In this document: piece after piece, positions 6,458-19,659 of the stretch
How the letters are laid out: each line of letters begins with the position of its first letter
How positions within the stretch are numbered: position 1 is the stretch's first letter
Source of the DNA: a virus
DNA: 20,204 nucleotides
IMG/VR virus record: IMGVR_UViG_3300035703_000471
Span: 1-20,204 of that record
Direction: 5' to 3' (one strand)
The notes under the pieces: model-generated
The model's database searches: none
Told to the model about the DNA's origin: nothing
What the model saw: only the letters and a program-made list of their open reading frames with translations
Made by a program: the position numbers and the translations under genes

Positions 6458-8355
6458 TACAGATCACAAACACCGGAAACACAGGCCAGTTGTTGTGCTC
6501 CTTCAACATTGTCTTCGTTTTCTTTTAACTGATCCCAGTCAATGTCAACAGGCATTTGAGCTAACAAAGCGTTGTATTCTTCTTCTGTGCAATCCTGATA
6601 AGGTGCTTGTCGATATGTCCCTAAATCCATTGGCAGGAACGATACACCAGTACAGATATCAAAGTTGTCATACACCCAAGCCCCTACAGTAGGCCAATCA
6701 TTCTCATTAACTGAGATAGTTACTGAAGGTTTATGTTCGCACCAGTGTAGCTGATAGATACGCCATAGGTTAAGGTGAGATATAGCATCAACATCATCCC
6801 TGGTGATAGCACCTTCAGGAGCCTTCATAGGAAATGAGAACACGGTAGTGCTATCTGGTCTCATCACACAAGGCTCACTAGGAATACCTTGTTCGATCAT
6901 AAACGCCGTGAGAGGGTCTTTTTTATCTGATCGTACACGCCTGATGTAATACTGGGCATGTTGAGGATGAATGCCAGAAGCAGTGCCACAAAGCTGAGAC
7001 ACAGTACCAGAAGGCTTGACGCAAGTGATAGCAGCAGAGACAGGGATATCAAGAGCATTTGCTGTAACTTCATTAGCAACGATTGCTTCATTTCTTAACA
7101 TCTCCAATCTTGCTGGTAACGCTTTATCATCAGGATCATTCAGTAGTTTATGATCATAGATACCTGTCAATGATACACCCAATAGACGCTCTTCAGACGT
7201 ATTCTTTTCCCAGATCTTACGTAGGTATGGGAAGGTAGTCATTGTGCTCTGCCAAGTGCCTAGAACAGCCGCTACACGTACTTTGTACATCAAGTCTTGT
7301 AGAGTGTCCGTATCACGAACAATGACCTCTGTGAGGTTACAGAACTGGTAAGGACGAAGTATGATCTCTGAGCAAGGATTCGTACCGAAGTCATGGTTAG
7401 GATCTCTACGACCATTGATAGCTGCTTGCTTCTTCGATGCGTCTCTGTTAAAGATACCACGTTCACCTGAATGGCTTTCATAGATCGAACACCATTCACG
7501 CATAAACTGCCCTACAGAAGGCTTTACATCATACACAGCAGAGTTGTTGGCAAGGCTACGCTGTCCTTGTTGTTCCCACCATGCTCCTGCTTTAGCGTGT
7601 GCCATACGATCATCACTTAGATCGCTTAAAGATATCATCGCAGAACGCCGCACACCACCCACAACAACAACCTCCCCGATCTTGCACAGAATATCATGGC
7701 ATTCAAGGGACGACAGACGACGATTTTTGGCCGCTTGGAACTTCCTAATAACAAACTTGAATAGTTCAACGAGGGGTTCTGGACCAGAAGCTCTGCCTCC
7801 AAAGGTCTTAAGTCTGGAGCCAGCAGGTCTAACTTTGGATACGTCCCATGTTGCAATTTCTCCAGCGTATAGTAAAGCAATGAGTTGTCGTAATGCTTTA
7901 GCCCAGCCCTCTTTGCTGTCGGATACCACGATAGTAGTTTTACTATCGAATAGCTGATCAGGGACTTCAGGGAGTTGATTAACATACTTAGCCTCTACAG
8001 AGAATCCTACACCAGTACCACAAAGAAGGATGTACATCGCTTCATCGAAGGACTTAGGATCATCAATAGGTAGATAACTACAGTTGTATCCAGCAATGTT
8101 CTGACGCTCCAGAGCCTCACCAGCAGTCATCATACAACGCATGGAAGGCATCACATCCATGTTACGAATAGCTTTCTCTACAGTCTTGTAGATATGCTGT
8201 GGGATCTCATACTTATGTTTGTCTAACAGTTGCTTCTTCATGAAAGCCATGTAGCGATCAACTGTTTCATCCCAATTCTCACGCCTTCCTTGTTCGTCAA
8301 TGAAACGACTGTAACGGCTCTTGTGGATAAAACTTGAATAGTTATTCAACTTCAT
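6457..8355 (-). CDS. nrdJ: Adenosylcobalamin-dependent (class II) ribonucleotide reductase
   Basis: This 632-residue enzyme reduces ribonucleotides to deoxyribonucleotides through a thiyl radical made with coenzyme B12. The active-site block is NPCSE (326-330), with thiyl Cys328 and Glu330. The redox pair is Cys92 (AGYNCSYLP) and Cys339 (QFCNLTEV). The phosphate-binding stretch is VKPSGTVSQLCGTASG (446-461). The C-terminal shuttle cysteines are in ACVSGVCDL (C625, C630). The C-x4-C spacing matches the monomeric Lactobacillus-type enzyme, although the protein is about 100 residues shorter. No intein or intron interrupts it. It starts at an ATGA overlap with the small acidic gene upstream. With ThyX it supplies dNTPs during infection, and it ties the phage to a host that has B12. 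Confidence 0.96.
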   Translation of the reverse strand: MKLNNYSSFIHKSRYSRFIDEQGRRENWDETVDRYMAFMKKQLLDKHKYEIPQHIYKTVEKAIRNMDVMPSMRCMMTAGEALERQNIAGYNCSYLPIDDPKSFDEAMYILLCGTGVGFSVEAKYVNQLPEVPDQLFDSKTTIVVSDSKEGWAKALRQLIALLYAGEIATWDVSKVRPAGSRLKTFGGRASGPEPLVELFKFVIRKFQAAKNRRLSSLECHDILCKIGEVVVVGGVRRSAMISLSDLSDDRMAHAKAGAWWEQQGQRSLANNSAVYDVKPSVGQFMREWCSIYESHSGERGIFNRDASKKQAAINGRRDPNHDFGTNPCSEIILRPYQFCNLTEVIVRDTDTLQDLMYKVRVAAVLGTWQSTMTTFPYLRKIWEKNTSEERLLGVSLTGIYDHKLLNDPDDKALPARLEMLRNEAIVANEVTANALDIPVSAAITCVKPSGTVSQLCGTASGIHPQHAQYYIRRVRSDKKDPLTAFMIEQGIPSEPCVMRPDSTTVFSFPMKAPEGAITRDDVDAISHLNLWRIYQLHWCEHKPSVTISVNENDWPTVGAWVYDNFDICTGVSFLPMDLGTYRQAPYQDCTEEEYNALLAQMPVDIDWDQLKENEDNVEGAQQLACVSGVCDL

Positions 8356-18683: not shown

Positions 18684-19331
18684 TTAACCCTTTGCAAGTT
18701 TAAGTCTAATGACTTTTGACATCTTTTGACCGTGGGCAGCATAGCCAATAATTGGTATTGATTTGTCCCAGCACTTCCGACACCCTTTACACTTTCCGCC
18801 TTGCTGATACGCTGGGCAGACACTAATGCTATCATCATTGTAGGATTCAGCAATAGTGCTAGACCAAGGTGCATCGAGTACTTCGCCGATAACAGAATCA
18901 GACGAACGACGAACAACCACATTCGGAAGTGCATCCATTTGTTCCAAGATTGCTTGATACTTAGGAAACTTATACATCCTAGTCGGCAACCAGTGTTTAC
19001 ACCATGGTGTGCGTTTCATGACCTCAAGCATTTTCTTTGCAAGCTTGATTGTGTACATGTCCCCAGAGTCGAACCACCGAAAGTAACGATCGGAGTCTAA
19101 GGCTTGCACCATGTCATCAACCCAATCATCACGCTGCCAGTCTTGTTTATTATGCTCACGTGGAGCTTTAACATTAGGATACAGATAATTGCCAGTAGTA
19201 GCATAGCAGCCAGCGCAGGCATCAACTAATTCGCCAGTGTAAACGTTGATACTACCCGAACAAGTATCCAAAGCTTGTAAACTCCAAGATCTAATCCCGT
19301 CAAGCTTGCTAGTGATTGATAATTTGAGCAT
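18684..19331 (-). CDS. Cysteine-rich GP88-like phage protein, putative Fe-S protein
   Basis: This 215-residue protein has two Cys clusters. One is near the start: VDACAGCYATTGNY (C39, C42), with C24 upstream. The other is near the end: CPAYQQGGKCKGCRKCWD (C172, C181, C184, C187). Between them are RYFRWFDSGDMYTIKLAKK, WLPTRMYKFP and NVVVRRSSDSVIG. This layout matches what I remember of the Gene product 88 family and recalls the radical-SAM-derived Gp37/Gp68 phage proteins, but the classic CxxxCxxC is absent. An Fe-S or zinc site is likely. GAGG precedes the ATG by five bases. Its 5' leader contains the hammerhead ribozyme, so the mRNA should begin at 19379 after cleavage. Confidence 0.8.
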   Translation of the reverse strand: MLKLSITSKLDGIRSWSLQALDTCSGSINVYTGELVDACAGCYATTGNYLYPNVKAPREHNKQDWQRDDWVDDMVQALDSDRYFRWFDSGDMYTIKLAKKMLEVMKRTPWCKHWLPTRMYKFPKYQAILEQMDALPNVVVRRSSDSVIGEVLDAPWSSTIAESYNDDSISVCPAYQQGGKCKGCRKCWDKSIPIIGYAAHGQKMSKVIRLKLAKG

Positions 19332-19351
19332 GATATCCTCAAAGGTTAGTT

Positions 19352-19406
19352 GGACTCATCAGTATAGTATTAAACTATAGACCCTACACTTGGCAGGGTT
19401 TCGTCC
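19352..19406 (-). ncRNA. Type II hammerhead ribozyme
   Basis: Read on the - strand: GGAC (19406-19403, stem II 3' strand), core GAA (19402-19400), stem III ACCCTGC-CAAGT-GTAGGGT (19399-19381, including the A15.1-U16.1 pair), C17 (19380), stem I TATAGT-TTAAT-ACTATA (19379-19363), core CTGATGA (19362-19356), and GTCC (19355-19352), which closes stem II with GGAC. Every conserved core base of the hammerhead is present. Stem I is 6 bp. Stem III is 5 Watson-Crick pairs plus G-U and C-G. Stem II is 4 bp and open, which defines type II. Cleavage is expected between 19380 and 19379. It sits between the stop at 19411 and the GP88-like start at 19331. Confidence 0.92.
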
Positions 19407-19410
19407 TGGG

Positions 19411-19659
19411 TTAGATATATTGCTTACTTGTAATTTTCTCATGTCGGACAAAATCAATGTTAGTATTCCATACTGTGTAATCGCCTAGTTTTGGTCGACG
19501 GATCGTTGATCGGAAGACGCCTTTACTGATTAGGATGCCGTTGATTCTGCCATGCTTTGTGTACGCTGTTATAAATCTTGTATGCGATGTCTTCTTAACG
19601 ATTGTCATAAGTTTCAATGCTTTGTAAGTTTGCTTGATTTCCTGGATCAGGTTTTTCAT
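19411..19659 (-). CDS. First early gene, small basic protein
   Basis: This 82-residue protein has AAAGGAG eight bases before the ATG, the best ribosome binding site of the early block. It is very basic: MKNLIQEIKQTYKALKLMTI, then KKTSHTRFITAYTKHGRING and FRSTIRRPKLGDYTVWNTNI. It is probably beta-rich, which suggests nucleic-acid binding. It is the first gene after the promoter at 19711-19739. Its TAA is only four bases from the 5' strand of the hammerhead, so ribosomes finishing this gene would cover part of the ribozyme. No family recognised. Confidence 0.78.
   Translation of the reverse strand: MKNLIQEIKQTYKALKLMTIVKKTSHTRFITAYTKHGRINGILISKGVFRSTIRRPKLGDYTVWNTNIDFVRHEKITSKQYI

Follow-up and report, generated by a model that had tools for sequence, protein, structure and literature searches.

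The question raised by this locus is whether a short stretch of the - strand, lying between two phage genes, is a genuine type II hammerhead ribozyme and, if so, what it would do for the mRNA that carries it. The window (the whole stretch of DNA that was analysed, a complete IMG/VR record, 20,204 bases long) has a gene for an internal virion protein on the + strand and, on the - strand, genes for GP88, an L5 gp82-like protein, a primase/helicase, a family A DNA polymerase, an exonuclease and a B12-type ribonucleotide reductase. The DNA polymerase is nearest to those of Pelagibacter and Roseobacter phages (43-49% identity), and a tRNA search of the window found none. The original prediction had placed the ribozyme between two phage genes of an early operon. 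Its position was correct, the neighbours being an 82-aa gene and GP88; the operon is probably early, as judged from the - strand block of GP88, primase/helicase, DNA polymerase, exonuclease and ribonucleotide reductase genes. Read from 19406 to 19352, the - strand gives GGAC GAA ACCCUGCCAAGUGUAGGGU C UAUAGUUUAAUACUAUA CUGAUGA GUCC, in the order stem II, GAA, stem III hairpin, C17, stem I hairpin, CUGAUGA and stem II (parts and flanking genes below).

19411 to 19659, - strand: upstream gene, 82 aa, without known family, with 4 nt between the end of its stop codon and the ribozyme
19352 to 19406, - strand: complete type II hammerhead ribozyme (sequence, fold and independent covariance model)
19403 to 19406, - strand: stem II 5' arm GGAC, which pairs with 19352-19355; GGAC/GUCC swaps with GGUC/GACC in relatives
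19400 to 19402, - strand: core GAA (G12 A13 A14), invariant across all copies
19381 to 19399, - strand: stem III hairpin ACCCUGccaagUGUAGGGU, with A15.1-U16.1 closing the core (fold; every cell paired in relatives)
19380, - strand: C17, with predicted cleavage between 19380 and 19379; C, A or U in relatives
19363 to 19379, - strand: stem I hairpin UAUAGUuuaauACUAUA, loop UUAAU (fold)
19356 to 19362, - strand: core CUGAUGA (C3 to A9); CUGANGA in relatives, with variation at position 7 only
19352 to 19355, - strand: stem II 3' arm GUCC (family alignment)
19349 to 19351, - strand: 3' tail AAC, the first A being the probable partner of the conserved loop I U
19337 to 19340, - strand: GAGG ribosome-binding site of the downstream gene (sequence), 11 nt past the stem II end of the ribozyme
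18684 to 19331, - strand: downstream gene, 215 aa, Pfam GP88 (PF17338; 98.2 bits, E = 8.6e-28)

Stem I has 6 bp and a 5-nt loop, stem III has 7 bp including one G-U and a 5-nt loop, and stem II is an open stem of 4 bp. All core positions (C3 U4 G5 A6 N7 G8 A9, G12 A13 A14 and H17) are present and in the right order, and the two core-adjacent pairs, A15.1-U16.1 (A19399-U19381) and 10.1-11.1 (G19355-C19403), were invariant in both alignments used below. Since stems I and III are closed by loops and stem II is open, both in the fold and in the model alignment, the topology is that of type II. Sequence reading, folding and the covariance model R1 (see below) bore out the type, core, stems and cleavage site originally proposed, and 19352-19406 (- strand) is confirmed as a genuine type II hammerhead motif, right to the base. 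The accompanying remark that type II is a less common topology is outdated: in bacteria, it is as frequent as types I and III (Perreault et al., 2011, PMC3088659).

Folding calculations agreed with this reading. The isolated strand folded exactly into the hammerhead structure (-17.3 kcal/mol, 48% of the ensemble, z = -2.2), which was also included in the minimum-energy fold of a 171-nt stretch. With 40 nt of flanking sequence on each side, pairing probabilities were 0.94 for stem I, 0.97 for stem III and 0.54 for stem II, the last figure, about half of the ensemble, coming from a calculation that leaves out the tertiary contact; several relatives had a low predicted stem II probability. A set of 82 distinct copies with a 17-nt stem I shows two conserved bases, both shared by the window: loop I opens with U in 81 of them, and stem II is followed directly by A in at least 69. 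This conservation suggests that the loop I U and the tail A form a tertiary contact, apparently of a non-Watson-Crick kind. Contacts between loop I and stem II are known to speed hammerheads (PMC6155905), and the conserved U and A fit such contacts without calling for the base-paired pseudoknot that the Rfam form has. As for the loop I-tail pseudoknot (the subclass with at least 4 bp), AGUU can pair with AACU of the tail only by opening the top of stem I; in contrast to the type II hammerheads of PMC3088659, the window shows no evident loop I pseudoknot of 4 bp that would spare stem I.

Searches with Rfam at gathering thresholds gave no match in the window, and its type II model, RF02276, found none in the window's own record, nor did it with E up to 10. 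The only hammerhead match obtained at E up to 10, to RF00008 (Hammerhead_3) with 16.4 bits, was discarded, being in the wrong register, with downstream sequence replacing GAAA and with unpaired ends. The gathering cut-off of RF02276 is 37 bits, which the window copy does not reach. When this model was run on ten contigs with clear type II hammerheads, the cut-off was reached in one only (L164), whose copies have a 2-3-bp stem II and mostly a 22-24-nt stem I, and all 22 copies listed by a structural descriptor in the other nine contigs were missed. In permissive mode on three contigs, four sister copies were recovered at 27-33 bits, the form with a 4-bp stem II and a 17-nt stem I scoring 32-33 bits and a copy with a shorter stem II scoring 27. 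Since sister ribozymes of the same architecture also score below the cut-off, the Rfam negative reflects the narrowness of the RF02276 model and not the window sequence.

A pattern scan of viral contigs yielded many unrelated hammerheads for an independent model. The alignment behind it (A1) comprised 64 distinct hammerheads with a 17-nt stem I from other phage contigs, the window family being excluded. Under the hammerhead structure, 99.6% of its cells were paired, against 67% after shuffling; these sequences had been pre-selected for stem formation, and it is the spread of compensatory changes that carries information, with 12 of the 15 pairs altered on both sides. Covariation at all six pairs of the 17-nt stem I was found among unrelated phages. 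The model built from this alignment (R1) scored the window copy at 59.7 bits (E = 3.2e-18) against 13.7 bits for the runner-up in the window; its E-values are rough, coming from a short calibration, and the margin is very large. The covariance-model check suggested with the original prediction thus gave no significant score with the Rfam model and a clear one with R1. The runner-up, at 6854-6898 (- strand) within the ribonucleotide reductase gene, was set aside as chance. In the 1.73 Mb of fetched loci, the strict structural descriptor had 229 matches; reversing or only complementing the same sequences left it with none. Because hammerhead patterns had been used to fetch most of these loci, the 229 matches cannot be read as a frequency, and the weight lies on the empty control. 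A chance match to the hammerhead core, which would agree with the absence of a significant Rfam match, is refuted by the R1 E-value and by these empty controls, and its probability is negligible.

We then asked how the ribozyme varies among its relatives, using a family made up of contigs with a related GP88 gene (fetched regardless of ribozyme) and contigs with the stem I sequence. The exact 55-mer was found in two other viral contigs. None of the 20 distinct versions has a core base change, and the core substitutions in homologous phages that the original prediction had named as evidence against it did not appear among these relatives. The variable sites of the core region are N7 (U or C) and H17 (C, A or U, a choice demanded by the descriptor and by the viral-contig pattern scan and left free by the stem I pattern and the GP88 loci). 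Stem I is invariant across the family, by construction for the contigs fetched with its sequence; R1, which does not require that sequence, found no copy with a different stem I on the GP88 contigs. Because stem I and most of stem III are invariant, covariation inside the family rests on one pair of 17, the others being invariant or changed on one side.

The compensated pair of stem II is A-U in 12 versions, U-A in 5 and mismatched in three mosaic contigs (L010, L018 and L020), in which the 5' arm of one type is joined to the 3' arm of the other. The 5' arm tracks the upstream gene: GGUC occurs only with a gene ending in ISESN, and GGAC with all others. Since the 5' arm follows the upstream gene and these contigs carry mixed arms, the mosaics point to recombination inside the ribozyme. 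Among the 23 GP88 contigs with at least 83% protein identity, the ribozyme lies directly upstream of GP88 in 12; in L018 it lies upstream of a small inserted gene, and in L022 only a remnant, ACTGACGAGACC-AACTAACC, is found within 40 bases upstream of 4001, the 5' half having been exchanged for other sequence. The remaining contigs of those 23 are without ribozyme. About half of the close GP88 relatives have none at all, and the ribozyme is therefore not essential. For the GP88 homologue in MW202484, the annotated upstream gene ends 16 nt before, which leaves too little space for a ribozyme. An internal deletion has cut GP88 down to a frame of 50 aa in L090 (downstream of 663) and in L095, with the ribozyme upstream left intact.

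Five ribozyme-free contigs (L012, L017, L029, L039 and L041) have a short hairpin, looped by GAAA or UUUC, in the same region upstream of GP88; one example, CCAA-GGGC-GAAA-GCCC-TTTCAACTAACC, resembles ribozyme stem II plus GAAA with the intervening part removed. It might be argued that the window element is non-catalytic in practice and that its hairpins act as a transcription attenuator or an mRNA-stabilising structure, given that a simple scan rates stem III as terminator-like and that a plain GAAA-loop hairpin (e.g. GGGC-GAAA-GCCC) occupies the same place in three of these contigs (L012, L017 and L029). However, shuffled sequence is expected to give 0.7 such sites, against the one called here at stem III, the T run after stem III belongs to stem I and sister ribozymes are without a T run there, and a hairpin role needs no invariant CUGANGA, GAA, A15.1-U16.1 and H17. 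We regard this explanation as very unlikely.

The position of the ribozyme relative to genes proved to be tightly kept. In the window, it begins 4 nt past the stop codon of the 82-aa gene, and the distance from the cut to the GP88 start is 48 nt. Throughout the family, it is always found between two co-directional genes and on their strand, 4-10 nt after the upstream stop (cases measured) and, except in L101, 48-52 nt before the downstream start, and this geometry holds for five kinds of gene on the upstream side and three on the downstream side. The same arrangement extends beyond the family: a purine-rich site and a start codon were found within 150 nt downstream in 152 of 178 distinct viral type II hammerheads, with a median cut-to-start distance of 53 nt. 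A ribosome-binding site and start codon 40-65 nt past the cut were present in 69% of the 178, compared with 10% for random positions on the same strand and 6% for the other strand; the gene test was crude, being made without a gene caller, and the contrast is nonetheless large. An ORF-overlap test was discarded, as spurious long ORFs in GC-rich contigs confound it.

These data bear on whether a real, cutting ribozyme could bring no benefit to gene expression and be a harmless passenger at a module joint, kept as a shared patch for recombination. Several observations would suit such a joint: one and the same ribozyme links upstream genes of five sorts to downstream genes of three, the stem II 5' arm goes with the upstream gene while three contigs mix arm types by exchange inside the ribozyme, and the ribozyme persists where GP88 is internally deleted (L090 and L095) or replaced (L084, L088 and L092). 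On the other hand, the core is never broken, its variation being limited to the tolerated H17 and N7, and a tight start-codon distance across unrelated phages is unexpected for a passive joint; on balance, we consider the passenger explanation improbable. The ribosome-binding site and start codon of GP88 can themselves pair as a hairpin (UUUGAG...CUCAAA, window 19322-19343, - strand), as in some relatives only. Together with the location in a 5' leader, this pairing could be taken as a sign of a regulated, riboswitch-like ribozyme. Such regulation is extremely unlikely: there is no adjoining extra conserved domain, the flanks change with the neighbouring genes, and the ribosome-binding-site hairpin is not conserved.

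Type II hammerheads that flank phage genes, with cleavage shown, were described by Perreault et al. (2011, PMC3088659) and reviewed later (PMC6155905), and a search of the open-access literature found nothing on phage type II hammerheads later than PMC3088659 and reviews. The window ribozyme is a further copy of this kind, known in phages since 2011. It has in common with the phage and prophage type II hammerheads of PMC3088659 the core, the permutation with stem II as the only open stem and the site between co-directional phage genes, and differs from them in occurring as a single copy and not in a cluster of several, and in having a stem II of 4 bp and a stem I of 17 nt whose loop is UUAAU. 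Topology and core are also those of Rfam RF02276 (Hammerhead_II), which fits a stem II of about 3 bp and a stem I of 21-24 nt; RF00008 (Hammerhead_3) has the same core, but stem III is closed in the window, which is thus not type III. Mildly new are the Rfam blind spot, the near-fixed start-codon distance and the trace of recombination inside the ribozyme.

A BLAST search of the ribozyme against named phages returned chance-level pieces only, and a pattern scan of bacterial genomes returned mostly non-hammerheads, with 47 distinct descriptor matches in the loci read, 3 of them of the 17-nt form. One repeat, dispersed over contigs of Betaproteobacteria bacterium MS502-56 (L222, L234, L235, L256, L268 and L291), matches a loose hammerhead pattern and was rejected because no stem I hairpin closes before CTGA and no stem II forms. 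Two loci from Saccharothrix and Streptomyces genomes (L274 and L276) have type II hammerhead-like copies, two per 8-kb stretch, possibly prophage arrays. Arrays of four to eight type II hammerheads on one strand, spaced by a few hundred to about a thousand bases, were seen in the phage contigs L103, L110, L118, L121, L122, L129, L164, L168, L181 and L195.

Taken with the alternatives above, the window element is very probably a working type II hammerhead that processes the polycistronic early mRNA of the phage, catalysis being predicted. Motif, conservation, covariation and placement are the observed part of this reading; we infer cleavage and the chemical ends from established hammerhead chemistry, which predicts a 2',3'-cyclic phosphate after C17 and a 5'-hydroxyl on the following base. 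Once made and free of ribosomes, the RNA would fold and cleave itself after C17 (19380). Of the two products, the upstream mRNA would retain its entire gene and have the stem III hairpin, bearing a 2',3'-cyclic phosphate, as its 3' end; the downstream mRNA would carry a 5'-hydroxyl on the stem I hairpin, after which comes the remainder of the 48-nt leader, including the ribosome-binding site of GP88. With a hairpin at each new end and no phosphate at the new 5' end, decay should be slower, and the two parts of the operon would then have separate lifetimes and translation, effects on mRNA stability and translation that we infer from placement. A terminating upstream ribosome may cover stem II and delay folding, a guess from the geometry of the nearby stop codon. 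There is precedent for such processing: clustered phage hammerheads cleave in operon transcripts of about 2 kb in vitro, a hammerhead set of A. tumefaciens cleaves in E. coli, and Perreault et al. suggested that a long phage transcript is processed into gene-sized mRNAs, the same purpose that is taken here (PMC3088659).

More speculatively, and with considerable doubt, type II hammerheads with a 4-bp stem II and a 17-nt stem I could be abundant and largely unannotated makers of phage mRNA ends, set a few bases past a stop codon and about 50 nt before a start codon, where the terminating ribosome would uncover the ribozyme and so time the cut, and where the ribozyme might also be a joint for module exchange. 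The locus is a clean and conserved case from a podovirus-like metagenomic phage and lies outside the prophages from which clusters of this kind had been described. RF02276 misses an architecture that is common in phage contigs, and phage annotations consequently under-count self-cleaving RNAs. The near-constant distance of about 50 nt from cut to start codon provides a direct, testable prediction on phage mRNA processing.
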